From Armatimonadaceae bacterium (GTDB taxonomy: Bacteria; Armatimonadota; Armatimonadia; Armatimonadales; Armatimonadaceae), in assembly GCA_030446525.1 (NCBI GenBank), contig JAUJNC010000008.1, forward strand, positions 1 through 60,198: a stretch of DNA of 60,198 nt, written 5' to 3'. Shown piece by piece: positions 464 through 31,187 of the stretch (within the stretch, counting starts at the first letter, position 1; each line of letters starts with the position of its first letter). The notes below the pieces were generated by a model. It was not told the origin of the DNA. It did not search any database and saw only the letters and a list, made by a program, of their open reading frames with translations. Position numbers and translations under genes: made by a program.

Positions 464-1357
464 ATGAAACCAGGCTATCGACACCCTTCCCCCCGCGGGG
501 CCGGCTTCACGCTGATCGAGCTTTTGACGGTCATCGCCATCATCGCGCTGCTGGCGGGGATCATCTTCCCCGTCTTCGCCGCCGTGCGCGAGAACGCCCG
601 CCGCGCCTCCTGCATGAGCAACATGCGCCAGATCCAAACGGCGGTCAAGCAGTACCAGCTGGACAACCGCAGCTACCCCGATTTCCTGTTCGGCCCGGCG
701 GTGGATGCCGAAGGTGATCCCGTCACTTCCGGTCAGACCGCCCTGCGCGTGGAACAGGTCACCGGTTTCCTCAACTCGACGGACACGAGCAATGCCGCTG
801 CGTCGAAGATCAAACGGCTTTACTCCACGGGGCTGTTCCCGGAGTACGTACGATCGGTTGACGTGTTCCAGTGCCCCAACAACGATGTCAAGGCGACGAG
901 CAGTAACGCTACTGCGGAAGTGGATCGTCTTGAGTACAGTAGGGAAAACGCCCAGGCAGGCATCACGAGGCGTGTCTTCTATCGGTACGACAGCTACGAC
1001 GCCAACCCCCGTATAGAGAACGTAAACAACACCTTCCGGCTGGTCCCAAACACGTTCGAGGCGCGCTACTCGAAGGTCTGGACGCCGATCTACCAAACGC
1101 CCCGGCAAGTGCCGGAGCCGATACAGCCGGTGTATCGGTACCAGCTTCACTGGACGACGCCGCCGGACGACACGTACCTCACCATGTGCTCCCACCACGT
1201 CTCCAAGGACAAGATCGTAGTGATCTGGCTGAACGGGCAGGCCAAGGTGCTCGACGTGCGTAAGCTGAATGACGTTCGAAATGCAGGCGGCGCCTCGGAT
1301 TTCGATCTGTACAGGCTGGGCCCCGGCGGCCCGATCCGTGACCCCAATGACGCCTAG
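464..1357 (+). CDS. Prepilin-type N-terminal cleavage/methylation protein (major-pseudopilin or DUF1559-like)
   Basis: A secreted pilin-class subunit of 297 residues. A short basic leader ending in RGAG precedes the type III prepilin motif FTLIELLTVIAIIALLAG, with Glu at mature position +5, so PilD-type peptidase should cut after Gly and methylate Phe. The following FPVFAAVRENARRASC stretch is the typical continuation in Armatimonadota/Planctomycetes DUF1559-type proteins. The C-terminal part contains SHHVSKDKIVVIWLNGQAKV, a variant of the H-X9-DG region of that family. The ATG at 464 is preceded by a GAGAGGAG ribosome site (447-454); an upstream in-frame start at 389 would put 25 residues in front of the leader and is less likely. 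It is the first gene of the pilus cluster and has its own promoter. Confidence 0.85.
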   Translation: MKPGYRHPSPRGAGFTLIELLTVIAIIALLAGIIFPVFAAVRENARRASCMSNMRQIQTAVKQYQLDNRSYPDFLFGPAVDAEGDPVTSGQTALRVEQVTGFLNSTDTSNAAASKIKRLYSTGLFPEYVRSVDVFQCPNNDVKATSSNATAEVDRLEYSRENAQAGITRRVFYRYDSYDANPRIENVNNTFRLVPNTFEARYSKVWTPIYQTPRQVPEPIQPVYRYQLHWTTPPDDTYLTMCSHHVSKDKIVVIWLNGQAKVLDVRKLNDVRNAGGASDFDLYRLGPGGPIRDPNDA

Positions 1358-1439
1358 AAACGGCTGAAGCGGAACAATATCAGCGACGCGGCAGTCAAAA
1401 AAGACGGACCTTGGGCGATCAGGACCTGGGGAGGCTTCT

Positions 1440-1470
1440 GGGGCCTGCACGGAGATACGCGGCAGGCCCC
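1440..1470 (+). terminator. Hairpin after the first prepilin gene
   Basis: A perfect 9-bp inverted repeat (GGGGCCTGC at 1440-1448, GCAGGCCCC at 1462-1470) with a 13-base loop lies in the 187-base gap between the first and second prepilin genes. No U-run follows, so it is a weak intrinsic terminator or an attenuator/mRNA-stabilising stem that could set a higher level of the first pilin. I see no riboswitch consensus in the rest of this gap. Confidence 0.4.
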
Positions 1471-1544
1471 TGTTACGAGTACAGGGTTTTCGACGAAACC
1501 GGCGGCACAGGCCAGCGAGCAGCTTGAAACAGTTATATAAAGCG

Positions 1545-3515
1545 ATGACGATCAAGGTAAAACAGGCAGCAGGGGTGGCGACATGGCGGCGCGCGCAGCG
1601 CGGCGCCTCGCTGGTGGAAATTCTCGTGGTGCTGGTCATCCTGCTCATCGGGGTTTTCTCCGTTATCCGGGTCTTCCCGATCGGCTTGCTGGGTCTGCGG
1701 CAGGCGGAGAGCCGCACGCTGGCGTCGCGCCTCGCCGCGCAGTTGATGGAGCAGATCAAATCGGACGAGACCAACCTGCCCCAGGGGGTGCTGTTCACCT
1801 ACACCGATCCTAGCTCGCTCTCGCTGGTACCTATTCGCGGAGAAGACCCCGACAGCTTCGGCGGCTACCCGAGCGACGACCCCAATCCGTACTTCTCCGA
1901 CGTAAACAAGTTCCGGACCGTCGTCGGCGAGGCGGTAAAGGTCCCCCTGCCCACGGCTACCGCCGGGGCTTCCGGCTCCCTGTACACCGTGAAGTTCGGC
2001 CCCATCTACATGGACGCGAGCGTAGGCAATCCCGAGGCGACTCCGAACTACAACGACGACGCCAACCTAAGACGCTACAACAGCTATTTGAGAGTGTACG
2101 GGCCGCCCCTGCGCGGCTACAGCGCCCGCTATGAGGCGAACAATGAGAACAACGTGAGGTACCTGCTGCGCGGGCCGAACACCTATCTTATTGCCTACGG
2201 CGAGGAAAACGAGCCGACGTACATCCTATTCCCGGCGCGGCCGCCCCGGAATAACCGTGATATCCCTTTTCGGCTCTTTCGCGTCGCGTTCTCCTATGAA
2301 GTGAACAACCAGGTCAGATCGACGATCGTTCCTATAAAGGTGGATGACGACGACGAGCACAAGTGGGTGCCGATACCGGGGGACTACCCTGATGTTTTCC
2401 CGGGCAGCGAGACCGTGAGCCGCGAATTCACCCGGATCAGGGCCACTGGCAGGGACTGGGATGAGGACGACCCGTACGAGTATAAGCTCCTTTCCCCGAA
2501 CGCCTCCCCTTTCGCCAACATGGGGCTGGTGGCCTTCAACCCTGCGGGCGCGAACTACTCCGAACGTACCGCCTACGGACAGCAGGCGTTCACGGCGTAT
2601 ATCGACTACTCCGTGCTGGACTGGCATATCATCCGCGAGGACCGCGAGGTGCCGTCGGCGGTGTTTGCCCGCGACGGAGCCATACCGATCAAGCTGACCC
2701 TGAATGCGATCAAAAGGACAGGGGATGTGGAGCCGGATCAGACGACCTACCAGGGGCTTTACCGGAATGCCACCCCTACCAACGCACAGATCCAGGATAT
2801 CCAGGTATTTAATCTGCAAACCGGCGCAACACTGCAAGGGGCCACTTTCGACGATTCTGGCGCCGATCCGCGCGATCCCGAAGCGGACTACTGGGTGGAC
2901 ACGGACGGGCGCAGCGGCTCGTATCGCACGGGTACGATCTACATCAATGAAAGGCGTGTTGAGCGCGGGTCCCAGCTTCGTATCCTGTACCGAGCCGAGG
3001 GCGACTGGGCGCTTGCGGTGCAGAAGGCGTTCGCTCAGTACAGACCCGCGCTTGACGAAAGCAGCGGAGATATTGTCTACCTGCCACGCCCCAACGACTA
3101 TGACAGCTTCGGACAGGATTACACGCAGCCCACGCGGCCACGACTGTACTTTGACCTGAACGATCTGAATAAGTCTGTCGTGGCCACGTTCGAGTACACG
3201 CGAAACGATGCGAGGACCGACAATCTGCCTACCCTGGTGCGCACCCCACCGATACAGTTCGCGATCGATGAAAAGGGGATCGGGGAGGACGCAAGGTACG
3301 CGTTTGTGGATCTCGCGAGCCGGAGCCAGGACATCATAAACAAGCACATGCCGGGGATCGCCGCGGGCAGCGCCCCGAGAGTTGTCGGCACGATCAGCGG
3401 CGTCTCACTAAAGGTCCGCGTGATCTGGAAGGATAATGCTTCCACCTCCAACGCGTGGCGCGTGCAAGATCTGAACACCTACATCACCCGTTCGGCAAGT
3501 TCCCAGACTTTCTAA
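1545..3515 (+). CDS. Oversized PilV-like prepilin-class protein
   Basis: A 656-residue protein with a basic leader ending RRAQRGA and then SLVEILVVLVILLIGVFSV, a prepilin-type helix with Glu at +5 in the PilV/GspI style. The post-helix segment (RQAESRTLASRLAAQLMEQI) is the amphipathic continuation seen in PilV-like minor pilins. Family members are usually about 130-200 residues; here roughly 600 residues of soluble beta-rich sequence follow, rich in Asp, Asn, Tyr and Pro. The ATG at 1545 is taken as start; a TTG at 1524 is in frame but adds nothing to the leader. Neither has a strong ribosome site. It is followed by PilW- and PilX-like genes, matching the pilV-pilW-pilX order of classical minor-pilin operons. 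The role as a minor subunit at the pilus tip is inferred. Confidence 0.75.
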   Translation: MTIKVKQAAGVATWRRAQRGASLVEILVVLVILLIGVFSVIRVFPIGLLGLRQAESRTLASRLAAQLMEQIKSDETNLPQGVLFTYTDPSSLSLVPIRGEDPDSFGGYPSDDPNPYFSDVNKFRTVVGEAVKVPLPTATAGASGSLYTVKFGPIYMDASVGNPEATPNYNDDANLRRYNSYLRVYGPPLRGYSARYEANNENNVRYLLRGPNTYLIAYGEENEPTYILFPARPPRNNRDIPFRLFRVAFSYEVNNQVRSTIVPIKVDDDDEHKWVPIPGDYPDVFPGSETVSREFTRIRATGRDWDEDDPYEYKLLSPNASPFANMGLVAFNPAGANYSERTAYGQQAFTAYIDYSVLDWHIIREDREVPSAVFARDGAIPIKLTLNAIKRTGDVEPDQTTYQGLYRNATPTNAQIQDIQVFNLQTGATLQGATFDDSGADPRDPEADYWVDTDGRSGSYRTGTIYINERRVERGSQLRILYRAEGDWALAVQKAFAQYRPALDESSGDIVYLPRPNDYDSFGQDYTQPTRPRLYFDLNDLNKSVVATFEYTRNDARTDNLPTLVRTPPIQFAIDEKGIGEDARYAFVDLASRSQDIINKHMPGIAAGSAPRVVGTISGVSLKVRVIWKDNASTSNAWRVQDLNTYITRSASSQTF

Positions 3516-3538
3516 AGCATGTGTGTTGGTAACGTAAA

Positions 3539-5488
3539 GTGAAACTGATGGCGGAAAACTCAAAAGCAGGCAGGCAAACCACGGGCGGCTTTACGCTGCT
3601 GGAGCTCCTGGTGGTGATCGCCCTCACGACGATCATTCTCGGGCTGCTGTTCGGCCCGATCTTCCAGGCGTTTTCCATCAACCGGCGCACACAGGCGATC
3701 ACGGTGGCGCAGGATGTGACGCGCTTCGGCCTGGAGCAGATGGTTCGTGAACTGTCGCAGGCGGCCTTCGTGTACGACAACACGCGCACGCCCATTATCC
3801 TGCCCATCGGCGAGAAGCCGGGGGTCGATTTCCCGGCCCCCCCGGCCAATTACAATCGGTACAGGCCGCCGTTCCTGTTTGCCAAGATAGACTTCGTGCC
3901 AGCGGCTACCCAGCCGCTCAAGGAGGGTGAGGTCGAAGACCCGACCACGGGGGGCAGGTACGGGGGCACGGATCTGCGCTTCCCTCTGGCCCGCGCCCGC
4001 CGCGTGGTACGCTATTGGATCGGGCTGCGGGACAATACGAACGTTTATCAGAACGTTTATGAATTCCCGCGCAGCGACAATGGTCTGAACCCCTTCGTGC
4101 TGTGGCGCGCCGAATTCGAGCCGAATGATCCGAACTTGATCTTCCAGCAAGCGTTTGACAGCGTAGAGCCCAGAGAGGGCGGTTTCGATGATCCGGACTT
4201 TTTCTACAACGTCGACAGGCGCGGTCCCAATGGCAGGACCTTCGCGCAGAACTGGCGCGCCATCGCGTCGCCGTTGATCTCGGGCGACAGGCTGGATCTG
4301 CTGGCCTGGAACCGGACCAGTGACCGTGGCGTCTCGGCGAGCAACCCCTTCCGCACCACGGTGAGCTTCAGCCCGGCGACGGTGGTGGGCGACACGGCCA
4401 CCCCCGGATACCTGACCGATCTGGGGAACGAGGCGCCGAACGCCGTCCCGTCGGTTTACACCACCAAGAACGGTCAATGGGTGCTGCCGTACACGGTGAC
4501 TTTCTATCGCGGCACCACGCGCAACCCCAACAATGCCACCCCAAGCTTCTTGCGGATCCGGGTGGGTCCTGACCAGAACAATCTAATCCGGCCGGTTCTT
4601 GTTAATGCTCCTAGCGGTACGGACCTGGTTTATGGGCGCAGCCAGCGCGGTTGGTTTATCAGTGCAGGCGGTGCGGACGGCGTCACTTTTTCTCTGGATC
4701 CGCTGCGGGGCCGCGTCGTGACGGGCTTCCCGCCGCTCGCCACAAACGGGAACGGCGTGCCGCTGATTAATGACGATCGGAGTTCGCCCTCCTTTGGTGA
4801 GCCGATTCCCATCGTTTTCCGCGTCAACTCGCGCCACCCGGACGCAGGGAGGGAGCTGCCGGCGAATACGGGACGATCTGAGCTGGATTTGACGGAACCG
4901 AATTACGTCGGACCGGACCGCCGTGAGGACCATCCCTCGCCGTTCGCACAATTTGGTGGATTGATCGTCCCGGGGTCGGAGCGGGTGCTGGGGCCGGACA
5001 ACAACCCGAGCAGGGACAGCACCCCTGGCGATCCGGAACTAGTGCCCTACCACCGTGTTCCTGTACTGCCGTCTGGCCGGCAGGACGCCAAGATCGAAGT
5101 GGACCCGGCCACAGGCACGAGCCTTTTCAGCGGCTATTCTACCGGGCCACTCGTTTATGAGTTGGGGCTCAATCCCGCGCAGCCCGTGATATTCTTCGAC
5201 AAATCCATAATTCCGACCCCGCCGCCACAGGGTCTGCCCGCGGTGCCGGAGAGTGAACCCCAGGAGCGGCAGAAGTTCGTTGAGGTAACTTACCTCTGGC
5301 AGAACAACTACGCCCGCGGCACGGCGGGGGGGGATGACGCGCCGGAGGCCGATGTGGTGAAGGTGGACTATTCGACGCGCTCGCTGCTCAACATCAACCT
5401 CGGCGTGCGGGTTTACGACGCGAACCGTGGGCGACCACAGATGGTGCAGCTGACGGACCAGGTGAAGATCAACAATGTGGGCCGGTAG
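3539..5488 (+). CDS. Oversized PilW-like prepilin-class protein
   Basis: About 649 residues. The leader ends TTGG and is followed by FTLLELLVVIALTTIILGLL, a canonical prepilin helix with Glu at +5, then a helix (RRTQAITVAQDVTRFGLEQM) like that after the TM segment of PilW/GspJ-type proteins. The remainder (about residues 80-640) is a long extracytoplasmic domain without a family I recognise. The GTG at 3539 is the longest start and ATG 3548 is equally plausible; neither has a clear Shine-Dalgarno. It lies 23 bases after the PilV-like gene and just before the PilX-like gene, so the three are probably co-transcribed and co-assembled as a minor-pilin complex. Its length is several times that of known PilW proteins. 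Confidence 0.75.
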   Translation: MKLMAENSKAGRQTTGGFTLLELLVVIALTTIILGLLFGPIFQAFSINRRTQAITVAQDVTRFGLEQMVRELSQAAFVYDNTRTPIILPIGEKPGVDFPAPPANYNRYRPPFLFAKIDFVPAATQPLKEGEVEDPTTGGRYGGTDLRFPLARARRVVRYWIGLRDNTNVYQNVYEFPRSDNGLNPFVLWRAEFEPNDPNLIFQQAFDSVEPREGGFDDPDFFYNVDRRGPNGRTFAQNWRAIASPLISGDRLDLLAWNRTSDRGVSASNPFRTTVSFSPATVVGDTATPGYLTDLGNEAPNAVPSVYTTKNGQWVLPYTVTFYRGTTRNPNNATPSFLRIRVGPDQNNLIRPVLVNAPSGTDLVYGRSQRGWFISAGGADGVTFSLDPLRGRVVTGFPPLATNGNGVPLINDDRSSPSFGEPIPIVFRVNSRHPDAGRELPANTGRSELDLTEPNYVGPDRREDHPSPFAQFGGLIVPGSERVLGPDNNPSRDSTPGDPELVPYHRVPVLPSGRQDAKIEVDPATGTSLFSGYSTGPLVYELGLNPAQPVIFFDKSIIPTPPPQGLPAVPESEPQERQKFVEVTYLWQNNYARGTAGGDDAPEADVVKVDYSTRSLLNINLGVRVYDANRGRPQMVQLTDQVKINNVGR

Positions 5489-5540
5489 GGCAGTGCCAGG
5501 ACGACGTGAAGGAATGTACGACCAAGTGCGCAGGGATGCG

Positions 5541-8348
5541 ATGGTAAAAGATAAACGGTTCGGGGCGCGAAGGCGCGGCGGTCAGGCGGGCCAGTCACTC
5601 ATCGTGGCGGTTATCGTCCTGTTCCTGCTGCTGTTCCTGGGAGGCATTTTTGTCGCCCTGGTTGCGCGCAACCTGTTCAACGCCCAGCGGGCCGGCAACG
5701 TGTCCTCGGCCGGCGGGCTGGCCGAGGCCGGACTGCGCTACCTGGATGAGCAGCTCATGACCTCGCCGGAAGGCGCCGACTGGCGGCCTGTGCCCGACGG
5801 CTTGCCTGTCGGTATACAGCCGCCGGCCGGCTATGTGCCTCCCGACCCGGGCGACCCGGATTACTTCTGGATCAAGCCCTACGAGCCGGCAACCGGTCAG
5901 GGTGGCTTCACGCGTGTCATCTTCGGTGGCGCGACGCCCACACAAGGAAACTCAGGTGGGCGGGCGCTGGTCCGTGTAACCTACCAGCCGGACCCGCGAA
6001 ACCCCACCTCGAAGTACTTGCGATTGGACTCGGTCGGCCGGGTGGGTGTCATCAACCCGCAGGACCCGACCACGTTCGGCAACACCGAGGCGTTAGGGCT
6101 TCGACGGGAGCTGGTGGCGTACAAGGCCATCGGCATCCTGGACTATGTTCGCTCCATCTGGAACAAAGATAATAAGCCGGTCAATGCCGCGCTGGGCGCA
6201 CCGTTCAGGGTGTATGACCGGCCCGCTAATGGCAATGCCGGCCCTGCCGAACCGCGCGCCATCGTTTCCGAGTACGTCGGCCCGATCCGTGTCAACGGGA
6301 ACCTGTTGTGGTACGGCGTAAACAGGATCTCCCTGAACCCGGATCGCAACGATGCCATCGAGGTGGCGGGCAACATTCTGCTGAACAACGAAACGCCCGG
6401 CAACCCGACCCTGGTGACTGCCTATGACGCGCGCACCAACGCGCCTTTTAACGACCAGTCTCCGAACGTGTTCCCGAGCGACGCGCCGAACTTCTCCACG
6501 TTGGAAGGCGTGGTACGAGATGCCCCGGCGGGTGAAGATCTCAGTCGCCTGGGAGGTGATCCGGCGGATTACAATAACCGTAATCTGCGATCCGTGGCGC
6601 GGCTCGCGCCGCCGGTGATCGATGCGGAGACGGGACCGGGCGGTCTTACGCGGTATCGTGCCCTGACCCGGAGCTCCGCGCCGATGGCGCCGCGCTGGAC
6701 CCAGGCCAACCCCATACCGCCCAACCGTTATAACTACGCGGGGGCTTACGGCTGGGGAACGGGGCTGTACATCATCAACCGCGACGACGTGCAGCAAGAG
6801 TCGAGAAGTCTCGCTGGTACCTACTCGCTGCGCAGTGACTGGCTTCAGCCCAACCTCTCGGGCGGACGCAACTCGTACTGGCGCGGCGATTTCCAGTACG
6901 AGCCACCTGCCGTCACGATCGAGCTCCAGCCGCGGTACATGAGGCTTACGCAGTCAACCTACGGAGAGCAGCGCAGGCGTCCTTTATTCCGCGCCCCGGA
7001 CGGTGACCGCATTCCGGCCGAATCCATCATCCGTTACACCGACGGCGACAAGCCGACGACGGACATTGCCGCTGGCGTGAGCGAAAGCGCAAAGTATCAG
7101 GGGTATCCCGAAGGCGACTACGTCATCTTCGCGGAGGGGAACATCCGCATACGCGGAACGGTGGGCGGCTCCGACCCGTCCCGGCCGCAGCCTTACATAC
7201 GCCACCTGACCGTGGTCTCGAACGGCACCATCTACATCGACGGCAGCCTGTTGCGCGACAACCTGCAGCAGGGCCAGCAGGGGCGCGGGCTGTCTTCCAT
7301 CGCGCTGCTGGCACGGGACTACGTGGCGGTAAACACCACGCAGTTTTTGAACCCGCCGGACACATCCTTCGAAACGGTGGGTAATGATCTGGTTCGCAAA
7401 CTGGACGCGACGCAGCAGCAATTCGAGTTTTACCTGACCCCGACACCGGTGCTCCCGAACAATGTGCTGTCTACTGCCACTCCGCTCCTTTTCTTACGGC
7501 ATACGGCGGCGTTTGACCCCACGTCACAAGCTGGGGGAGCGTTCATCAACCTGTTCGTGAATGGCGACGACGCGGCGACAAACCTGTTTAACTTCGGCCC
7601 CCCAGCGAACCAGACGAGTCATCCGGTTCCCTCTCAGACGTTTGTTAACGAAGTGTTCCCGCTGAACAACGGGCCAATTAATTTGAACGACGTCGGTGTG
7701 AACAACCTGCTCACCTTCAACTATGATGTCAGTGCCGGTTCGACCACGGCTTACCGGGCAACGCGCATCGGCATAGCGCCGCTGGATGTCCGGATCGAAG
7801 CGTTCATCTACGCGCAGGAAGGGTCGTTCTTTATCATCCCGGGGCCGTGGTTCAACCCCGACCCGAACGACACCTATGCGAACTACTTCTCCGAGGAGAC
7901 CCTGCCCGACGGGACGACCCGCCAAAGACTCCGCCGCGCGGGTGAGAACCCTGCCAACCCCGATGCAGAGGTAGATCCGCACTTCCCCTTCTACCGCGAG
8001 CCGATGGATGTGCGCCTGACCATCTACGGCACCGTCGCGGAAAATCTGCCCGCGCAGATCGGCGATCAGGGGGCGTGGCTGGAGAAGTGGGGATGGACTC
8101 CGCGTTTCTACGGCTCCACCGGGCTGCCGAACATTGATGGCATCACACCGCCCCAACGCGACCTGGATCAAACGGAGCACGAGGGAGTCGGTTTGCTGTT
8201 CGAGTTTAACGAGCAGGCCATCCTCCCCTATGTACCGGGTACGATGACGCCTATTCGTCCGGATGAGTATGGGCGCACGCTTCCCATCGTGCCGCGGCTC
8301 CCGGTGGCGCAGGGGCTGCTGTACTCCGGCGAGAACCCGGTTCGGTGA
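5541..8348 (+). CDS. Giant PilX/GspK-like single-pass protein
   Basis: About 935 residues. A basic N-terminus (KDKRFGARRRGGQAGQ) precedes the hydrophobic helix SLIVAVIVLFLLLFLGGIFV and the alanine/glycine helix NVSSAGGLAEAGLRYLDEQL. This layout (no Glu+5, 'GQSL' entry, helix with residues that pack against pilin) is like the N-terminus of PilX/PilX-N and GspK-type proteins. The large C-terminal part carries beta-strand-rich stretches such as YVIFAEGNIRIRGTVGG and LTVVSNGTIYIDGSLL (about residues 525-570), which resemble a short parallel beta-helix. In-frame starts exist at 5475, 5514 and 5541; 5541 is chosen because CAGGG sits 6 bases upstream. It follows the PilW-like gene and precedes the two propeller genes. 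Confidence 0.7.
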   Translation: MVKDKRFGARRRGGQAGQSLIVAVIVLFLLLFLGGIFVALVARNLFNAQRAGNVSSAGGLAEAGLRYLDEQLMTSPEGADWRPVPDGLPVGIQPPAGYVPPDPGDPDYFWIKPYEPATGQGGFTRVIFGGATPTQGNSGGRALVRVTYQPDPRNPTSKYLRLDSVGRVGVINPQDPTTFGNTEALGLRRELVAYKAIGILDYVRSIWNKDNKPVNAALGAPFRVYDRPANGNAGPAEPRAIVSEYVGPIRVNGNLLWYGVNRISLNPDRNDAIEVAGNILLNNETPGNPTLVTAYDARTNAPFNDQSPNVFPSDAPNFSTLEGVVRDAPAGEDLSRLGGDPADYNNRNLRSVARLAPPVIDAETGPGGLTRYRALTRSSAPMAPRWTQANPIPPNRYNYAGAYGWGTGLYIINRDDVQQESRSLAGTYSLRSDWLQPNLSGGRNSYWRGDFQYEPPAVTIELQPRYMRLTQSTYGEQRRRPLFRAPDGDRIPAESIIRYTDGDKPTTDIAAGVSESAKYQGYPEGDYVIFAEGNIRIRGTVGGSDPSRPQPYIRHLTVVSNGTIYIDGSLLRDNLQQGQQGRGLSSIALLARDYVAVNTTQFLNPPDTSFETVGNDLVRKLDATQQQFEFYLTPTPVLPNNVLSTATPLLFLRHTAAFDPTSQAGGAFINLFVNGDDAATNLFNFGPPANQTSHPVPSQTFVNEVFPLNNGPINLNDVGVNNLLTFNYDVSAGSTTAYRATRIGIAPLDVRIEAFIYAQEGSFFIIPGPWFNPDPNDTYANYFSEETLPDGTTRQRLRRAGENPANPDAEVDPHFPFYREPMDVRLTIYGTVAENLPAQIGDQGAWLEKWGWTPRFYGSTGLPNIDGITPPQRDLDQTEHEGVGLLFEFNEQAILPYVPGTMTPIRPDEYGRTLPIVPRLPVAQGLLYSGENPVR

Positions 8349-8404
8349 AGGCCCGTGGTGTGATCGTGAATTGTTGTATCATTAGAGGCATATGGCTATG
8401 AGAA

Positions 8405-13334: not shown

Positions 13335-13343
13335 ATAGGTAGG

Positions 13344-13457: not shown

Positions 13458-13483
13458 CAACTTTCACGGAAGTTCACTATACA

Positions 13484-21951: not shown

Positions 21952-22010
21952 CCCCTGCCCTTCCCCACCTTCGTGGGTTCTGTTTCCCACACCGGGGAGA
22001 GGGGCAGGGG
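21952..22010. repeat. Palindromic C/G-run repeat before pilM
   Basis: Left arm CCCCTGCCCTTCCCC (21952-21966) and right arm GGGGAGAGGGGCAGGGG (21994-22010) form a long imperfect stem with a 27-base loop. It sits between the second propeller gene and pilM, and its layout matches the elements at 13344, 41172 and 58151. The remaining bases to 22112 hold no recognisable gene. Confidence 0.6.
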
Positions 22011-22112
22011 ACGTAAACTTGGACAGGCGTTGGGCGTCATGCCAGAATAGCGCCAGAAACCGGGCAGTTTTGCCGGGGCTCCGCCTCGCCCCGTTTGCGC
22101 GGAGAGCGCAGA

Positions 22113-23588
22113 GTGGCAAAACCGAGCGGTGGGGCTTCGTCGGCATCGACATCGGGTCACAGACCATCAAGGTAGTGGAGGCGCGGGGCGCGGGCCCGAA
22201 CCTGCAGATAACCGCGCTGCATGGAGAACACGCCGCCGGGCGCGCGGTCCAGGGCGGCATGGTGGTCGACCTGAAGCGCGCTCGGCACGACGCTGAAGGC
22301 GCTGCCGTCAAAGCGGGGTCGGCGCCAAGCGGAGCGTGTCGGCCGCCGCGGCTCGTCCGTCATCGTGCGCGTGATCGAGGTTCCCCGAATGACGCCGGCC
22401 GAACTGGCCGAAACCATGAAGTGGGAAGTCGAGCGCCACATCCCCTTCGCGGCCAATGATGTCGAAATGGCTTATCAAACCATTGACGACCCGGCCGCGG
22501 CGGCCGACCCGAACAACCCCAACATGGAGGTGCTGCTGGCCGTGGCCCAGCGCGACATGGTGGCGGCGCACGTCGAAACCCTGCAGGCGGCCGGGCTGAA
22601 CCCGGTGGTGATCGACGTCGAGCCCCTCGCCACCGGGCGCACGCTACTTAATCTAGGCCAGAACGAGCTCGCCGCCAAAAACGTCGTGGTCGTCAACATC
22701 GGCGCGACCAACACCGACGTCAGCGTTTTCAAGAACGGCACCCTGCGCTTCCCGCGTACCATCCCGCTGGCCGGCGACAATTTCACGCGCGCGATCGCGG
22801 ACCACCTCGGGATCTCGATGGAGGCCGCCGAGGACGAGAAGCGGGAACACGCCACCATCTTTATGGACATGATCGGCGGCGGGGCCGCGGACTTCGGCCT
22901 GGGCCCGGAGCGCGACGAGCCGGCCGCCCCGGGGCGCACGCCCTTCGACTTCCCCGAAGTGCCGCTGAACACGCCGTTCGCCGAGCCGGCGCCGGCCCCC
23001 GGCTCCTCGCCGTTCAACCTGGATGACACCCCCCAGGCGCCCGCCCCGGGCCCGCCCACGTTCGATCTGGACGACGAGCCGGTGGGGATCGGGGGCGCCC
23101 CGGCCGCGGCCCGGACCTACGACGACAACCCGTTCGCGACGCCGCCCGCCGACCCGGAACCGTCGCCGTTCGCGACGTCCGCCACGGACGCGGCGTCTCC
23201 TTTCGCGACGCCACCCGCCGGCCCGCCGGCCCCGGTTTCGGACGACCCGCGGGCGCGGCGGCAGCGCGAGATCTTCGACGCCATCCTGCCCGTGCTCGGG
23301 GAGTTCGTGACCGAGCTGCGCCGGTCCATCGACTACTTCCGCTCGCGTTACCCGAACGACAACCTGGATCAGATCATCCTGTGCGGCGGCTCCGCCCGTA
23401 TCCCCAACCTGGATCAGTTCGTCCATTCCGACCTGATGATACCGACCGCGGTCGCCAACCCGTTCGGCCAGGCAGCGGTGTCCTCCAAGCAGATGTCGGT
23501 CGAGCGACTGGCCGATCTGGCGCCCGCCTTCACGGTCGCGGTCGGGCTAGCCACCCGCGACGCGGTCCTCGGCTCCGAAAGAAAATAG
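22113..23588 (+). CDS. pilM: Type IV pilus inner-membrane platform ATPase-like protein PilM (frame broken near start)
   Basis: An actin-like cytoplasmic protein that binds the PilN N-terminus. The GTG at 22113 gives MAKPSG, then after a one-base slip WGFVGIDIGSQTIKVVE (phosphate-1 motif). A second break at 22.25-22.35 kb separates it from the long open part with VRVIEVPRMTPAELAETMKW, EVERHIPFAA (both strong PilM signatures), VVVNIGATNTDVSVF (phosphate 2) and ILCGGSARIPNLDQF (adenosine motif) near the C-terminus. An acidic, Pro/Ala/Phe-rich insert of roughly 110-120 residues (about 22.90-23.25 kb), with repeats such as PFATPPA and DLDDEPVG, interrupts the usual fold; normal PilM is about 350 residues. 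It heads pilM-N-O. The frame breaks are probably sequence errors because homology is continuous. Confidence 0.85.
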
Positions 23589-23675
23589 AGCCGGGGGAGG
23601 GGCGCCGGTGCGTGGAAGTGAAGCTTTTACCGCCTCGGGCGGTCCTATACTACGAGAGACCTGGGACATAAAAAG

Positions 23676-24611
23676 ATGCTGCGCATCAACCTACTGCCCG
23701 CTTATATAGCGGAACGGCGCAAGATCCGGGCCACCATCGCCGGCTTCGCGGCCGGGTTCGCTGCCACCCTTGTCCTGTTGGGCGCCTGGTATGCCACCCT
23801 GCAGACACAGGTCACGGCGCGCGAGCAGGCGGCCAACGAGCAGGAAAGGCTGGCCGGGGAGGTCACGCAGATCGAGCAGGAAGCGCAGAACATCCGCACC
23901 GAGGTGACTCCGATCCTGCAGAAGAAGGAGTTCGTGGACGGGGTGCTGTTTTACAACACGCTGCGCCCCAAGATCTTCCGCCAGGCCGCGGCCTACACCT
24001 ACCGCAACATCGAGTACAGCGCGATGGCCGTCGAGGGGCAGACGCTCTCTATCCAGGCGTTCGGCCGCAACGTTTCCGATGTCGGACGCTTCCTGATCAC
24101 GATGTTCGGCAACCCGGACCTGCGTGCGGTCAGCGTGGCCGGGGTGCCGGGGTGGCCGCCGCAGGCGAACACGTCCGGGGGCGCCGCAGGCGGCTATGGT
24201 GGCGAGGAAGGCCTCCCTGCCGCCAATCCCGGAGACTTCGCCGGAGGAGGGATCGGCGCCGGCCCCGAGGCGTTCGCCCCCCCCTCTCCCGAAGGGTTCG
24301 CGGGCAGCGGATTCCCGGGGAGCGGTTCGGAAGGGGCGTACCCCGGCGGCGGCGACCCGTTCGGGGGAGCGGGCATGAACGCGACGACCGTCCGGCGCCG
24401 GGGCTTCCCGTTCACCGTGACCGGGCTGCTGGTGCAGCCGGTGACGCCGCCGCAGCCCCCGACCCGGACCCCGCCGCCCGGACAAGGGGTTTACCCGGGA
24501 GGGGGCATCCCGGGCGAGGAAGGGGCTCCTCCCCCCGATGCGGGGGCTCCCCCCCCGAGTCCCACTGCAGGGGCTGATCCGGAGGCGCCGCCCCCCGATG
24601 CAGGTCCCTAG
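23676..24611 (+). CDS. pilN: Type IV pilus assembly protein PilN
   Basis: A bitopic inner-membrane protein of 311 residues. The cytoplasmic N-terminus MLRINLLPAYIAERRK carries the INLLP motif that docks into PilM. One TM helix follows (residues 20-40, AGFAAGFAATLVLLGAWYAT), then a coiled coil (about 45-90) and a ferredoxin-like periplasmic domain (about 95-155). The last 150 residues are a Gly/Pro/Glu-rich tail that is not part of ordinary PilN proteins (about 180-200 aa). The ATG at 23676 follows AAAAG; a TATACT at 23646-23651 could be a weak -10 box for the N-O-P-Q part, but no good -35 is seen. It lies between pilM and pilO. Confidence 0.9.
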   Translation: MLRINLLPAYIAERRKIRATIAGFAAGFAATLVLLGAWYATLQTQVTAREQAANEQERLAGEVTQIEQEAQNIRTEVTPILQKKEFVDGVLFYNTLRPKIFRQAAAYTYRNIEYSAMAVEGQTLSIQAFGRNVSDVGRFLITMFGNPDLRAVSVAGVPGWPPQANTSGGAAGGYGGEEGLPAANPGDFAGGGIGAGPEAFAPPSPEGFAGSGFPGSGSEGAYPGGGDPFGGAGMNATTVRRRGFPFTVTGLLVQPVTPPQPPTRTPPPGQGVYPGGGIPGEEGAPPPDAGAPPPSPTAGADPEAPPPDAGP

Positions 24612-24632
24612 GGATAAAGGAGCCAGCGTGTT

Positions 24633-25388
24633 ATGGAAGCGTTAAGCAGACTGACCCGGCCGCAGGTCGCCATCATCGGCTCGGTGCTGATCGTATTGAC
24701 GGCGGCGATCATGTTCTTCTTCCTGATCCGCCCGCTGACCCAGCGCCTCGCGGCAGCCAACCAGAAGTACGACGCCCAGAAGCAGATCGCGGACACGCGG
24801 CTCGAAAAAGAGCGGGCGCGTGAGGAGGCCAGAAGGGAAGTCCAGCAGGCTCTCGCGCAGTGGAACAAGTACCAGCGCCGCTACATGCCGGACATCAACG
24901 TTTCGAACCTGCTGCGTGGCATGGAGCAGCTTTGGCGCGAGCAGAACGTGGTGCTGGGGCCGAAGGTGGTCAACTTTCTGCGCCGCGATCGGAGCGTCCG
25001 GGTGGCCCGAGCAGGCATCAGCGTCCCCGCGCCGCCCACGGATCCGAACATGGTCAGCAGAGACTTGATCACGCTGCCCCTGGGCGAGGTGGGCGTGCTG
25101 GGGTCGTTCCGGAACGTCCTTAATCATGCCGAGCGGTGGAACCGCTTTGACCGGCTGGTGCTGGTGGACAACCTCCGGCTGACCGGGAACTCGCCGCGTT
25201 TGGCGGGACAGTACCGGCTGACGTGCTACATCTTCACGCGCGGCAAGCCGGGTCTCAGCGTTCCCACGGCCGGCGGCGCCGGGGGCGGGGCCGGCATGGG
25301 CGCGCCGGGCGGGTACGAAGGGTCCGGCGCACCTGGTCCGGAAGGGTATGCCCCGCCCCCCGAAGGGTCCGGCGCACCTACCCAGTGA
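24633..25388 (+). CDS. pilO: Type IV pilus assembly protein PilO
   Basis: An inner-membrane partner of PilN, 251 residues. Short cytoplasmic tail, TM helix at about residues 13-35 (IIGSVLIVLTAAIMFFFLIR), a long charged coiled coil (about 36-85), then a periplasmic alpha/beta domain with RFDRLVLVDNLRLTG and YRLTCYIFTRG as the final strands. The C-terminal 35 residues are Gly/Pro-rich, with a duplicated PEG/GSGAP pattern, matching the tail style of the preceding PilN. It starts 21 bases after pilN, so both are surely co-translated. Identification rests on topology and gene order more than on primary-sequence motifs. Confidence 0.85.
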   Translation: MEALSRLTRPQVAIIGSVLIVLTAAIMFFFLIRPLTQRLAAANQKYDAQKQIADTRLEKERAREEARREVQQALAQWNKYQRRYMPDINVSNLLRGMEQLWREQNVVLGPKVVNFLRRDRSVRVARAGISVPAPPTDPNMVSRDLITLPLGEVGVLGSFRNVLNHAERWNRFDRLVLVDNLRLTGNSPRLAGQYRLTCYIFTRGKPGLSVPTAGGAGGGAGMGAPGGYEGSGAPGPEGYAPPPEGSGAPTQ

Positions 25389-25441
25389 GGCCGACGCTCG
25401 CGCTGACATAGCTTCAGGAAGAACGGTATAGAGACAGCAAC

Positions 25442-26438
25442 ATGGCACGAGTCAATCCACAAATGGAGATAAACGCGGAGATCTTCCGGGACCGCCGCGT
25501 CCAGATCGGGCATGGCGTGATCGCGCTCCTGATCGTGGCGGCGGTGGTGTTTTTCGCGTTCGGTTCCCGCCAGAGCGCCGAGGTCGCGGAGTGCCCCGCG
25601 GAGCCGGGGCGCCCGGGGCACCCGGCTTCCCGGGTGAACCCGGCCAGCCGGGTTTCCCCTCGGCGGTCCGAGGCGCCGGGCGCCCCGGCTTATCCGGGGC
25701 GGCGGTTCCGGGCGCCCCGGCCGCCACGGGGCCTGCCTCGAACGTCCCGAACTCCTTCGAACGCCCCGCCCTCGTTGAGAGGGGGTGCCGCGGCAGGGCC
25801 GGAGCGCCTGGTTATGCCGGGGGTATCCTGGTGGCGGCGATCCCGGCGGCTTCCTGGGGCGGCGCCCGCCGCACCCGCGGGCGCGCCGGTCCCGCCGCCG
25901 GGCGTGCTCGAAGGGAAAAAGCGGTGGCCTCGCGGGTCGACCTGTTCGTGTACTACCGGCCCCCGGGCGCTCAGCGGCCACCCGCATATACCTACACGCT
26001 GCCCATACGGCTCGCCTCGCGACGGCCAACCACGGGAGGCGATCCAGCAGGATCCCGTGACGGTCCTGGGGCCGCTGCTCCGGGCCATCCAGCGGCGGGT
26101 CGCCGGGATGCTTTTCAACGGCTCCGTTTCGGCGATCCTGAAAGCGGCAACCCGGGCGCGGAGGCCTTTTACCAGGTGATACAGCCCGGCGTGACCGTGC
26201 GCCGAGCGGTGTCGCCGGCGTTCCGGGACCTGACGGCGGAGTCCATCGGCCGGGAGGCGGTCGTCCTGCGCGCCCCGGACAGGCGGAGCGTGACGGTCCG
26301 GTTGAGCAACGCGCCCCGGGCACGAACCTTCTGCAGCCGGGCGCTGCGGGCGGCGAAGAAGGCGTTCCCCCGGCGCCGGGCGGCATCCCCGGCCCGGGCG
26401 CTCCTCCCCCGGGATCGGGCGTCCCCACGGATATCTGA
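25442..26438 (+). CDS. PilP-like periplasmic linker protein with collagen-like segment (frame broken)
   Basis: Reads as one gene of about 330 residues with frame changes near 25.60, 25.79, 25.9-26.0, 26.15 and 26.2 kb. The N-terminus has one TM helix (VIALLIVAAVVFFAF, about residues 22-38). After the first break there is a run of six exact G-X-P triplets (GAPGAPGFPGEPGQPGFP, 25606-25659) in a longer Gly/Pro-rich segment. The C-terminal half contains RVAGMLFNGSVSAIL, FYQVIQPGVTV and REAVVLRAPD (joined across breaks). These resemble the beta-sandwich of PilP, which links PilNO to the PilQ secretin; the position between pilO and pilQ agrees. It ends VPTDI, with TGA at 26436. Classical PilP is a lipoprotein, while this one has a TM anchor. 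Confidence 0.6.
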
Positions 26439-26471
26439 CACTGACCTCCGGCAAGGGAAAGAGGAACAAGC

Positions 26472-27360
26472 ATGAACAGGAAAAAGATAGCTATTTCGAC
26501 CGTGCTGGTGGGCGTGGAGGTGGCCATGGGCGAGCCCTCTGGCGGCCCGCGCGCAAACGGCCCCGGCCCCTGCTGCTCCTGCCTGGCGGCGCCGTCGCAG
26601 GCGACACCCTGCCGGTCAGCCTGGACCTGTGGACGCGCCGATCCGGCAGGCGTTGGAGCAGCCTGTTCACCAATGCCGGAGCGCAGTTCTCGATCGACCT
26701 GAACACCCAGGGCTTCGTCACCCCGAGGGTCACCGACCAGCCCCTTCTTCGAAACCGCCCTGCGGTTGCTGCTGCGCTCGGCGAATCCGCCGCTGACCAC
26801 ACGCGCGAGAACAACGTGTACTTCGTCAGGCCCTGTACTGTCGCGACCACGACCGGGGTTCCCGGCGCGGAAGGATATCCGGGGGCTGAGGGCGTTCCCC
26901 CGCGCGCCGGGCACGAGACGGGCGGGCTGGCATGGCGGAAGGCAACACCAAGTTCGACAAGATCAGCGTCATTTCGCCGACGCCGCGGACATCGCCGTTA
27001 TCTTCGGCGGCACCGTGATCAGCATCGGCGCCGGGCGCGGTAACCAGGCGGCGGCGGCTTGGTGGCGGCGGCTTGGGCGGCGGCTTCGGTGGTGGCGGCG
27101 GCGGCTTCGGCGGCGGCGGCCGTGGCGGCTTCGGCGGCGGCAAGGGCCTCGGCGGTGGCGGCGGCCTCGGCGGCGGCGGCCTCGGCGGCGGCGGCTTCGG
27201 CGGCGGCGGCTCCGGTGGCGGCGGCTTCGGCGGCGGTGGCGGCAACTTCGGCGGCGGCGGCTTCGGCGGCGGCCGCACCTTCAACTGGTCGCGCACCTTG
27301 CGCACCACCTTCCTGGCGACTCCGTTGGGGGTGGCCCTGGTAACGGGCCACCCCACGTAA
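26472..27360 (+). CDS. STN/secretin-N0-like protein with polyglycine C-terminus (frame broken)
   Basis: Starts MNRKKIAISTVLVGV at 26472, a signal-peptide beginning that breaks frame near 26.52 kb before an Ala-rich h-region. Pieces in alternating frames give an STN/N0-type fold: ALEQLFTNAGAQFSIDLN, then ETALRLLLRSANPPLT and ENNVYFVRP. This matches the beta-alpha-beta 'secretin and TonB N-terminus' pattern also present in the downstream PilQ. From 27053 the frame is open and almost pure Gly with Phe/Leu/Ser spacers (GGGFGGGG units), ending at TAA 27358-27360. No secretin core is present, so it is not a secretin. It may be an accessory N0-domain partner of PilQ. The exact length of the middle is uncertain. 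Confidence 0.5.
27053..27285 (+). repeat. GGC-rich tandem coding repeat (polyglycine)
   Basis: About 230 bases made almost entirely of GGC/GGT codons, interrupted at fairly regular intervals by TTC, CTC or TCC, coding GGGF/GGGL units. It is the 3' end of the STN-domain gene. The run has strong strand asymmetry and is a likely site of replication or sequencing slippage. Confidence 0.8.
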
Positions 27361-27417
27361 CCCCTGTAAATGCGCGGCGCTCCGAACGACCGACGCAAGG
27401 ATTGTAGGAGGACATGC

Positions 27418-29172
27418 ATGCACACCCCTTTATGGCAAGGTAGCCGTACGGCTGCCGCGGTGACGTGGGCGCTTGCCGCCCCCGTTTTCATCGGCGTTGC
27501 CGGCCCCGCCGCGGCGGCTTCCGGCAGCTCTCTCGTTTCGCTCGACGTCCGGGAAGCGCGCCTGGCGGACGTGGTCACGATGCTGACGCAGAAAACGGGC
27601 ATCAACAATATCGTGCTCGCCCCCGCCTCCGCGGGCGGCTTCGGGTCGGTCACGCTGACGCTCTCCGAGCAGCCCGTGGACAAGGCGCTCCGCGCGGTCG
27701 CGGCGGCGGCGGGGGCGACGGTGATGGAGGAGGACGGGATCTATTACGTCCGCCCGCGCGGCGCCGAGACCGGAGCCGCTCCCCCGCCCGCCGCGACCGT
27801 GGACGTGGCGGACGCGGTGGTCGTTCCGCCGGCGCCCCCGGCGGCTGCGCCGACGCCGGACGCCGCGGCGCCCGCGCCGGCCATCACGGCCCCGATCCCC
27901 TCGCGGCCGATCGGCCCGAAGCAGTGGGTGAAGATCACGCTTCAGCACCTCAAGCCGAGCCACTTCGTGAACCTCCTGAGGAACCCGGATTTCCTGACGC
28001 AGGATGACGGCCCCGTCCCTGAAATGAGGCTGCGCGATGGCGTGAGGGTGAGACCCATGACGCCGCCGCCGGCACCCATCGTCGTGCCGTCAGGCAACGG
28101 CGGTGATGGCCCCGCCGCGCCGGGCGGGTTTGCGGCCGGGCGCAGCGATGCGCCGGATGCCGCTGCCGGCCAGCGCACCTTCCCGCGGCCCGGGGGGGGC
28201 ACCTTCCAGGGCCAGCCGGGCGGCGTGGGCGTGCCCGGGGGCGTTGGGGGCGCGCCGGGCGGCGTCGGCGGCGTGGGTGGCGCGGGTGGCCTCCAGGGAG
28301 GACAGGCGACCAATCTGCTGCCCGAAGGCGTCGATCCGCCCCTGGCCTACGACGTGGATAACTCCCTGCTCGTGCGCGGTGACCCGGAGGGCCTGGAGCA
28401 GCTGCGCGACATCATCCGCCTGCTGGACATCCCGCCGAGGCAGGTGCTGATCAAAGCCGAGTTCGTGGACGTCCGGATCGACGACCTGGAAGATTTCGGC
28501 ATCGTGTGGAACATCCGGGCCGCCGGGAACGTCGCCCTGGGCACCCAGGCGCTCGGGTCCGCCGGCTCGCTCAACCTGATTTACGCCTCCGGAAATGCGG
28601 TGGCAAACCTCCGAGCGACCGCGACCCGCAACACCACCAACGTGCTCCAATCGCCGATCATCTCCACGATCAACAACGTTCCGGCGTCCATCGAGGTCTC
28701 CGAAACGATCCCGGTCTTCACCACCAACACGATCTTCAACAACAACATCGCCCAGAACGTGACCACGGTCCAAACCGTCGACGTCATCAACGGTCTCCAG
28801 GTCCAGCCGCGCATCAACGGCGACAACTCGATCACCCTATTCGTGCAGCCGCAGCTGCAGAACGCCACGTTTATCACCGGACCAGGCGGACAGGTCGCGC
28901 CGCAAGTCTCGACGCGCGCTCTGACCACCTACCGGCGCATCCAGAACGGCGAAACCATGGTGCTGGGAGGGTTTATCTCCCGGCAAGACACACGGCAAAG
29001 CAACAGGGTCCCCTTTCTTGGGGATCTGCCGATCATCGGCAGCCTGTTTCGCTCACGCAGCCGAACGGCTACGGGGTCGGAGGTTCTGGTCTTCCTGACC
29101 CCAAACATCATCGAGGACCGCTCCACCGGCACCCTGGGGACCGGGGGGGGCGCGCCGCCGCCCACGCCGTAA
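27418..29172 (+). CDS. pilQ: Type IV pilus secretin PilQ
   Basis: Outer-membrane secretin pore of 584 residues. The ATG at 27418 has a perfect AGGAGG 6 bases upstream. Signal peptide (TAAAVTWALAAPVFIGVA, cleavage near AAAASG), then an STN/N0 domain (about residues 40-115: SLDVREARLADVVTMLT, EEDGIYYVRP), a Pro/Ala linker, an N1-like domain (KQWVKITLQHLKPSHFVNLL), a Gly-rich loop (about 230-300), a secretin N domain (YDVDNSLLVRGDPEGLEQLR) and the secretin core (about 350-570: LQSPIISTINNVPASIEVSE, VLGGFISRQDTRQS, and the signature VPFLGDLPIIGSLF). No S-domain or pilotin-binding tail is evident. A hairpin terminator follows. aroK and aroB are directly downstream, as in proteobacterial pilMNOPQ-aroKB loci. 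Confidence 0.92.
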   Translation: MHTPLWQGSRTAAAVTWALAAPVFIGVAGPAAAASGSSLVSLDVREARLADVVTMLTQKTGINNIVLAPASAGGFGSVTLTLSEQPVDKALRAVAAAAGATVMEEDGIYYVRPRGAETGAAPPPAATVDVADAVVVPPAPPAAAPTPDAAAPAPAITAPIPSRPIGPKQWVKITLQHLKPSHFVNLLRNPDFLTQDDGPVPEMRLRDGVRVRPMTPPPAPIVVPSGNGGDGPAAPGGFAAGRSDAPDAAAGQRTFPRPGGGTFQGQPGGVGVPGGVGGAPGGVGGVGGAGGLQGGQATNLLPEGVDPPLAYDVDNSLLVRGDPEGLEQLRDIIRLLDIPPRQVLIKAEFVDVRIDDLEDFGIVWNIRAAGNVALGTQALGSAGSLNLIYASGNAVANLRATATRNTTNVLQSPIISTINNVPASIEVSETIPVFTTNTIFNNNIAQNVTTVQTVDVINGLQVQPRINGDNSITLFVQPQLQNATFITGPGGQVAPQVSTRALTTYRRIQNGETMVLGGFISRQDTRQSNRVPFLGDLPIIGSLFRSRSRTATGSEVLVFLTPNIIEDRSTGTLGTGGGAPPPTP

Positions 29173-29208
29173 GGCGGGAAGATAGCATACCGGGCGTGTA
29201 CAGACCGC

Positions 29209-29245
29209 GGCCGGGGCGCACCGCGCGCCCCGGCCCTCTTGTTCT
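29209..29245 (+). terminator. Intrinsic terminator after pilQ
   Basis: Perfect 11-bp GC stem (GGCCGGGGCGC at 29209-29219, GCGCCCCGGCC at 29225-29235) with a 5-base loop, followed by CTCTTGTTCT. It lies in the 151-base gap between pilQ and aroK and would separate the pilus operon from the shikimate genes. Confidence 0.65.
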
Positions 29246-29323
29246 GCGGAGCGCCTCCCGGCCGTGAAGCAGGATTTTCGTGCCAAATGTCGAAATGGCG
29301 GGTATGAACGTTATCGGATCGTC

Positions 29324-29869
29324 ATGGGCCGCGTTCTCCGGAACCTAGCGCTGATCGGGTTCATGGGGAGCGGCAAAAGCACAGTGGGCCGCCTGCTGGC
29401 CCAGAAGCGCGGGTGGCGCTTCGTCGATACCGACGAAGAGATCGTGCGGGCCGCCGGCCGCGACATCCCGTCGCTGTTCGCCCAGGAAGGCGAGGCGGCG
29501 TTCCGGGAACGCGAAGCGGAGGCCGTGCGCCGCATCGCGGCGGGGGAGCGTCAGGTGATCGCGACGGGCGGCGGCGCCGTCCTCCGAGAAGAAAACGCGG
29601 CGGCGCTGCGCGGGGCGGGCCTTGTGGTGTGGCTGACGGCCCGGCCCGACGTGGTGGTGGCGCGGACCGCGCGCCGCGCTGCGGAGCGGCCCCTGCTGGC
29701 GTGGGGCGGGCAGGATCTGCTCGCGCACGTTCTGCGGATGCTGGGCGAGCGGGGACCGCTCTACCAGGCGGCGGCGCACCTGGTGGTGGACACTTCCGAC
29801 CGCACCCCCCAGGCCGTCGCCGGCGAGATCCAGCGTAAGGCCGCGCGCTGGCAAGATGCAGGTGAATGA
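29324..29869 (+). CDS. aroK: Shikimate kinase
   Basis: Phosphorylates shikimate with ATP in the cytoplasm (aromatic amino acid pathway). 181 residues, normal length. Shows the Walker A loop GFMGSGKSTVG near the N-terminus, the shikimate-binding DTDEEIV (D-T-D), the second substrate loop ATGGGAV, and the lid-domain arginines in RPLL. ATG 29324 is chosen because it starts just before the P-loop strand; the in-frame start at 29264 would add 20 unrelated residues. It overlaps aroB by 4 bases (ATGA), so the two are translationally coupled. Confidence 0.93.
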   Translation: MGRVLRNLALIGFMGSGKSTVGRLLAQKRGWRFVDTDEEIVRAAGRDIPSLFAQEGEAAFREREAEAVRRIAAGERQVIATGGGAVLREENAAALRGAGLVVWLTARPDVVVARTARRAAERPLLAWGGQDLLAHVLRMLGERGPLYQAAAHLVVDTSDRTPQAVAGEIQRKAARWQDAGE

Positions 29870-30993
29870 TGGATCCTGACGTGTGCAAACTGACGGTGCC
29901 GCTCCCCGCCGGGCGCGACTACCCGATCCATATCGGGCCGGGCCTCCTCGCCCGGTGCGGGGCGGAGGCGGCGAGGGTTTCGCGGGGCGGGCGGGTGGTC
30001 GTCCTCACGCAGCCGCCCGTCGCGGCGCGCTACGGCCCCGCCGTGACCCGGTCGCTCCGCGAGGCCGGGCTGGACGTGCATCTGGCCACCTTCGCAAGCG
30101 GAGAACGGTTCAAGACACTGGGCACGCTGTCGCGGCTGTACCAGGCGCTGTATCAGCTGCGCGCCGACCGCAAAACGCTCGTCGTCGCCCTGGGCGGCGG
30201 CGTCGTGGGCGACGTGGCGGGGTTCGTGGCCGCGACCTACGGCCGCGGCCTGGACTATGTGCAGGTGCCGACCACGCTGCTGGCGATGGTGGACTCCTCG
30301 GTGGGCGGAAAGACCGGCGTGGATTTCGCCGACGGCAAAAACCTCATCGGGGCGTTCCACCAGCCGCGGGCGGTCCTGGCCGACACCGACACGCTGAGGA
30401 CCCTGCCGCCCCGCGAGCGGCGGTCCGGCATGGCCGAGGTGGTCAAATACGGCGTCATCCGTGACCCGGCCTTGCTCGATTTCGTGACCGAACGGGCGGC
30501 CGACCTGCGCCGCCTCACCGGGGACGCGCTGTCCCACGTGATAAGCCGCTCCTGCGCCATCAAAGCCGAGGTGGTGGCGGGCGATGAGCGCGAGGAGACG
30601 GGGCTGCGGGCGATCCTGAACTACGGGCACACCGTCGGCCACGCCCTGGAGGCGGCCACGCGGTACCGGCGCTTCCGGCACGGCGAGGCGGTGGCGATCG
30701 GCATGGTCGCCGCGGCGTGCATCGGCGAGGCGGCGGGCGTCACCCCGGCCGCGGTCCGGCGGCAGGTGGCGGACGCCGTTCTGGCCCAGCGTTTGCCCCG
30801 CGCGGTCCCCGCGGACGTTCCCGCCGCGACCCTGACGGGGCTGCTCTCCCTGGACAAGAAGGCCGAAGGGGGGCGCGCCCGTTTTGTGCTCGCCCGCGCG
30901 ATCGGCGAGGTGGAGCTGAGCGCCGGCGTGAGCGAAAAAGCGGTCGGGGCGGGGCTGGCGCTCCAGGCGCGCGAGTACGGCGGACGCCAATGA
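29866..30993 (+). CDS. aroB: 3-dehydroquinate synthase
   Basis: NAD- and metal-dependent conversion of DAHP to 3-dehydroquinate, 375 residues. Motifs: GGGVVGDVAGFVAATY (NAD loop), VPTTLLAMVDSSVGGKTGVD, the NLIGAFHQP segment, KYGVI and the metal ligands in LNYGHTVGHALE. All catalytic regions are intact and in one frame. It is coupled to aroK upstream (ATGA) and overlaps the small membrane gene downstream in the same way. The pilQ-aroK-aroB order is an old synteny known from proteobacterial pilus loci. Confidence 0.95.
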   Translation: MMDPDVCKLTVPLPAGRDYPIHIGPGLLARCGAEAARVSRGGRVVVLTQPPVAARYGPAVTRSLREAGLDVHLATFASGERFKTLGTLSRLYQALYQLRADRKTLVVALGGGVVGDVAGFVAATYGRGLDYVQVPTTLLAMVDSSVGGKTGVDFADGKNLIGAFHQPRAVLADTDTLRTLPPRERRSGMAEVVKYGVIRDPALLDFVTERAADLRRLTGDALSHVISRSCAIKAEVVAGDEREETGLRAILNYGHTVGHALEAATRYRRFRHGEAVAIGMVAAACIGEAAGVTPAAVRRQVADAVLAQRLPRAVPADVPAATLTGLLSLDKKAEGGRARFVLARAIGEVELSAGVSEKAVGAGLALQAREYGGRQ

Positions 30994-31187
30994 CCCGTGA
31001 CGTCGTGTTGTGTGTCTGGTTCGCGCTGGCGGGCGCGGCGTTCTTCGGGCCGTATCTGGGGGCGCCGCTGCCGGACCTGACCGCGGCCTACGGCGTGTTT
31101 CTGCTGGCGTCGGTGGCGGCGCTCGCGCTGCGCGGACTGCGCGCGCGGGGGGCGGGAGGCCGCCACCAGGAGGGGGTTCGTGGATAA
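30990..31187 (+). CDS. Small two-helix membrane protein
   Basis: 65 residues, starting at an ATG that overlaps the aroB stop (ATGA). Two hydrophobic segments are visible: residues 5-20 (VVLCVWFALAGAAFFG) and 34-46 (GVFLLASVAALAL), separated by PYLGAPLPDLTAAY, and the tail is Arg-rich. No family is recognised. Its last codons overlap the GTG start of the PASTA protein (31180), so aroB, this gene and the PASTA gene form one translationally coupled chain. The coding assignment rests on the overlaps and membrane pattern; it is short. Confidence 0.6.
   Translation: MTRDVVLCVWFALAGAAFFGPYLGAPLPDLTAAYGVFLLASVAALALRGLRARGAGGRHQEGVRG

Follow-up and report, generated by a model that had tools for sequence, protein, structure and literature searches.

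Genes of the pilus locus

We analysed a window of 60,198 nucleotides on contig JAUJNC010000008.1 (assembly GCA_030446525.1), assigned to an Armatimonadaceae bacterium, which carries a putative type IVa pilus (T4aP) locus with two giant genes, here called G1 and G2. All genes of the locus lie on the plus strand: four prepilin-class genes (pp1–pp4) are followed by G1, G2, pilM, pilN, pilO, pilP, an STN-domain gene, pilQ, aroK and aroB. This order and the common strand had been proposed in a first-pass annotation of the DNA and are borne out by profile matches, tblastn and gene position.

The first gene, pp1 (464–1357), encodes a GspG/FimU-like prepilin with matches to N_methyl (4e-6) and DUF1559 (SBP_bac_10; 3.2e-8) and a GspG-like N terminus that scores below the cut-off. 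Two large prepilins follow. The PilV-like pp2 (1524–3515) matches N_methyl (2.5e-4; 20.9 bits, slightly below the cut-off of 21.2) and TIGR02523 PilV (6.4e-9; 36.4 bits, below the cut-off of 52.2), and the PilW/HpsC-like pp3 (3539–5488) matches N_methyl (7.4e-5) and, below the cut-off, HpsC NF038304 (4.5e-8). Family profile scans of the prepilin-like pp4 (5475–8348), which occupies the PilX/GspK place, gave no match; because a relative lies upstream of G1 in all 37 testable loci, ending at most 677 bases from the G1 frame, we accept it as the fourth prepilin-class gene. G1 adjoins minor pilins of the pilV/W/X type, an assignment that for pp2 and pp3 depends on matches below cut-off. A frame of 216–223 residues sits between pp4 and G1 in four loci (L009, L010, L011 and L035).

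G1 (8405–13334) combines a signal peptide, recognized by eye, with a DUF4159 region, a PQQ-type propeller and NHL-type repeats, in frames that are broken. The DUF4159 match in the window is weak (0.004); G1 relatives contain DUF4159, a predicted eight-bladed PQQ/BamB-type propeller, which in the L001 protein covers about residues 369–1137, and NHL-type repeats, and a read-through of the window gene matches relatives along 98–100% of the length with E = 0, beyond chance. One protein with weak similarity to part of G1 (P0071, 1,183 residues) has an MshEN domain and NHL repeats. G2 (13484–21951, the exact end being uncertain) has a signal peptide, again by eye, a PQQ-type propeller region (14584–17157; model residues 48–905) and a long C-terminal part; its relatives also have a predicted eight-bladed PQQ-type propeller. 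The best structural matches of the propellers in both giants are eight-bladed designs and PQQ-type proteins. The first-pass annotation had called both giants propeller proteins, which profile matches and structure prediction back, and had called them paralogue-like, which is borne out solely within a PQQ stretch, where hhalign aligns 142 columns with a probability of 90.9 (E = 1.2e-6).

Golvesin_C is present in 5 of 7 scanned G2 relatives (below cut-off in P0075) and absent from the close relatives P0074 and P0078. Its position varies, ahead of the propeller in L018, L025 and L040 and at residues 611–772 in P0073 and P0075, with the P0073 domain at 611–732. Given this variation, the two absences and a window G2 not shown to contain the domain, we gave up the idea that Golvesin_C serves G2 as an adhesive N terminus.

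Downstream of G2, the window encodes PilM and the PilQ secretin together, as expected of a T4aP machine. The coordinates of pilM (22110–23588; PilM_2, 2.9e-45) are approximate, since its start is broken by a frame change. Order and tblastn matches to open reading frames of a relative locus, L041, identify pilN (23676–24611; 68% identity), pilO (24633–25388; 59%, with a weak T2SSM match of 0.013) and a broken pilP-like gene (25442–26480; 43%). A broken, stand-alone STN-domain gene (26480–27360) was recognized by eye, and its positional counterpart in L041 matches STN (2.8e-6); the Pfam scan of the window found no match for pilN or for the pieces of pilP and of the STN gene. They are followed by pilQ (27370–29172; Secretin, 2.8e-39), aroK (29264–29869; SKI, 5e-46) and aroB (29866–30993; DHQ_synthase, 1.2e-46). 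The secretin N0-like STN gene between pilP and pilQ is backed by Pfam solely in L041 (10494–11306), and elsewhere among the relatives it was assigned from its position or by visual inspection; the window pilQ carries a weak STN match of its own.

Both giants lie at the intervals first assigned to them, but frame changes, located by a codon-model path, mean that these intervals are not open reading frames. G1 has 12 frame changes within its first 2 kb (8560–10482), and G2 has repeated changes at both ends (13645–14443 and 20994–21910); breaks also affect pilP, the STN gene and the beginning of pilM. The changes cluster in four patches (8560–10482, 13645–14443, 20994–22276 and 25400–27350) with long clean stretches between them. 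The broken pieces with an assignable position are 41–96% identical to relatives, compared with 44–56% for clean pieces; a number of short ones had no assignable position, and two rows for clean G1 pieces, cut out of frame and showing stops, were excluded. In relatives, both giants are mostly long and intact, the split exceptions being G2 in L001 and G1 in L027. Because broken pieces are no less similar than clean ones and most relatives are intact, recent breaks or errors of the assembly consensus are likelier than old decay, and of these we take assembly errors to be the probable cause.

Calcium-type loops

Published work on PilY1 gives its calcium motif 1 as Dx(D/N)xDGxxD (PMC13190605). G1 contains a loop of this form, DVDNDGNPD (9683–9709), kept in most relatives: among 62 G1 relatives with 1,440 residues or more, 42 carry motif 1, where shuffled sequences would be expected to give 0.34. 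The site falls within residues 365–507, in the first propeller, in 40 of these; P0051 and P0053 have it only outside that span, and P0026 both inside and outside. Within its propeller region, G2 has an EF-hand-type loop, DKDGDGAIEDDE (14818–14853). This pattern, drawn up afterwards from the window loop, occurs in 8 of 16 G2 relatives (0.08 expected), and motif 1 occurs in 3 of the 16. Both loops are candidate calcium-binding sites, judging from their sequences.

Distribution across Armatimonadota

A scan of species genomes yielded 40 loci, whose labels are Armatimonadota classes, plain 'bacterium' and one Propionibacteriaceae (L007, label unchecked). The prepilin genes pp1–pp4 are complete and in order in 28 of 29 testable loci (L014 begins at pp2), 33 of 36 have G2 after G1 (the exceptions are L007, L015 and L017), and all six genes are visible in 27 loci. 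Of 201 genomes surveyed in the phylum, 164 match the G1 profile, weak matches counted; since no more than two candidates were scored per genome, the other 37 are uncertain negatives. The block of prepilins, G1 and G2 is thus found throughout the phylum, and not in one lineage as first suggested.

The junction of this block with pilM is patchy. Of 26 testable loci, 15 have pilM after G2 (14 of 25 before L002 was extended downstream as L052); in the other 11, reading past G2 covered 1.6–3.5 kb only. PilM genes and G1 are on different contigs in L005, L006 and L012, and G011 has both on one chromosome, with roughly 480 kb separating the pilM–aroB cluster and G1, if the coordinates of the L025 record and G011 agree. 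Upstream of the prepilins, relatives encode PilB, PilC and a prepilin peptidase, and in L049, L061 and L062 a second, PilT-like T2SSE protein of 396–438 amino acids lies beside PilB. A scan of viral contigs found no matches to pilQ and, for G1, two short matches confined to the NHL part. Two genomes have a second pair of PilM and secretin genes elsewhere (G001:C13:2332-7616 and G010:C1:28272-33888), which suggests a second type IV filament system.

A clade without propellers

PilM is present in 19 of 20 tested G1-negative genomes, and the region upstream of pilM was read in 11 of the 20. Five of these (G034, G048, G057, G065 and G090) have a pp4-like gene that is followed directly by pilM in place of G1 and G2, the G034 contig beginning within the pp4-like gene. 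The other four have pp1, a second pp1-like gene, pp2, pp3 and pp4, all upstream of pilM, and form one clade in a quick pp2 + pp4 tree (Shimodaira–Hasegawa-like approximate likelihood ratio support, 99). G057 and G090 encode PilB, a second T2SSE ATPase and PilC upstream, and in G090 pilM is followed by pilN, pilO and a secretin gene, with STN-like and aroB-like frames recognized by eye. A search for DUF4159 (E ≤ 0.001) found none in G034, G048 and G057; in G065 and G090, DUF4159 is located on contigs other than that of the pilus cluster. Loci L058, L061, L062 and L064 of this clade have two consecutive pp1-like prepilins instead of one.

Because one clade joins prepilins to pilM without propellers, joining and propellers are separable. 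On the pp2 + pp4 tree, propeller presence needs one change and joining to pilM five (L005 scored as untested); the tree is unrooted with weak deepest forks, such that gain and loss of propellers are not distinguishable. Among the remaining genomes read, G016, G030, G044 and G054 have no prepilin, G1 or G2 profile matches in the 11.6–19.9 kb upstream of pilM, G060 has prepilin-like frames there on the opposite strand, and G080 has a pp1-like frame ahead of pilM, at the contig start.

Relation to PilY1 and known pilus systems

The minor-pilin operon of Pseudomonas has the order fimU-pilV-pilW-pilX-pilY1-pilE, and FimU to PilX are the equivalents of GspH to GspK. The Armatimonadota block resembles this operon in having four prepilin-class genes and then a gene for a large propeller protein that looks secreted and carries an EF-hand-like loop. 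It differs in having two giants of another propeller family, with DUF4159 in place of vWFA/DUF4114, and in its prepilins, which at about 300–960 residues are unlike those of the operon.

The identical gene place and the presence of motif 1 in the first propeller would fit G1 and G2 being true PilY1 proteins that have diverged past sequence recognition, and PMC13190605 describes a variable N-terminal domain in known PilY1. We consider this unlikely. No match to the PilY1 profile PF05567 was obtained on scanning 25 G1 members, 7 G2 relatives and open reading frames of the window, and the structural matches listed are PQQ/BamB-type proteins and eight-bladed designs. The PilY1 structure 3HX6 is of a seven-bladed type. 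Because the profile is not matched and the best folds are of the PQQ/BamB type, G1 and G2 are not PilY1 by family, as far as their sequences can tell. The earlier proposal that they stand instead of PilY1 agrees with a PF05567 search of the phylum, in which 201 genomes gave no match; the 14 control genomes were equally silent, so this search does not prove absence.

The first-pass annotation had also taken minor-pilin and machine loci to be normally separate. Published exceptions are Geobacter sulfurreducens KN400 and Pelobacter carbinolicus, in which, according to PMC6060248, minor pilin and pilY1 genes lie within the T4aP cluster, beside machine genes. The joining of minor-pilin and machine genes is therefore not new. 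Compared with those clusters as that source describes them, the Armatimonadota have G1–G2 and not pilY1, and the joined loci extend to aroK–aroB. Thermus thermophilus pilA2–comZ is similar in having a large GspK-like pilin proposed for the tip beside a minor pilin, and differs in that the tip domain, a beta-solenoid, lies within ComZ itself (PMC6561018).

We found no description of a prepilin–G1–G2 module in the open-licence literature, which leaves subscription journals mostly outside coverage; the single paper there with both 'Armatimonad' and 'PilY1' has PilY1 in its reference list only. What is new, as far as this literature shows, is that two propeller proteins take the PilY1 place across an entire phylum.

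Proposed role at the pilus tip

PilY1 is widely held to be a priming and tip protein of T4aP, and in Myxococcus it primes extension together with minor pilins and sits at the tip, in a model that puts PilX beside PilY1 (PMC7541494). G1 and G2 occupy the genetic place of PilY1 with propellers and calcium-type loops, and from this we infer that they are probably the priming and tip proteins of the Armatimonadota T4aP in place of PilY1. In such a pilus, pp1–pp4 would be the minor (priming) pilins, in FimU-PilV-PilW-PilX order. Once secreted and docked, G1 and G2 would prime pilus growth and remain at the tip while the fibre extends through PilQ. Surface contact could be made by the non-propeller parts, namely the DUF4159 region in G1 and the long flanking stretches in G2. 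Any calcium dependence of tip stability or pilus dynamics would come from the Dx(D/N)xDGxxD and EF-hand-type loops.

The proposal that the prepilins instead form a short secretion pseudopilus, with G1 and G2 as exported cargo or surface products away from the tip, draws on the N-terminal likeness of pp3 to HpsC of cyanobacterial polysaccharide secretion and to the Verru_Chthon cassette, and on the very large size and secreted appearance of both giants. The likeness is weak, is shared by pp1 and by pp2 of one relative, and falls below curated cut-offs throughout; the clusters of relatives hold PilM-N-O, PilQ, PilB and a PilT-like second T2SSE ATPase, a combination typical of T4aP, which makes a pseudopilus quite unlikely. 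It is very unlikely that G1 and G2 are BamB-like scaffolds for secretin or envelope assembly inside the envelope, given that 11 of 26 testable loci lack pilM after G2 whereas all 37 testable loci have a pp4 relative ahead of G1, and that one clade encodes secretins without G1 or G2.

The giant pair may be an independently built pilus tip, present in many pilus clusters of the little-studied phylum Armatimonadota. That PilY1 gave way in this phylum to a tip module of two proteins from an unrelated propeller family, which arrived at the same calcium-loop design on its own and was inserted or lost between the PilX-like gene and pilM, has in our view close to an even chance of being right. Minor pilins and machine that are kept with another propeller pair, and a related clade with none, amount to an experiment of nature that can show what a tip protein has to supply, and make G1 and G2 candidate adhesins for Armatimonadota. 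One member of this phylum, Fimbriimonas ginsengisoli, is reported to have fimbriae and no motility (PMC4072686).

Neighbouring genes

Downstream of aroB, positions 31606–33749 of the window hold a broken PASTA-domain kinase gene and a ribulose-phosphate epimerase gene; a PASTA kinase is likewise next after aroB in L050. Farther along, positions 42755–44461 encode the C-terminal domains of a GH38 alpha-mannosidase.
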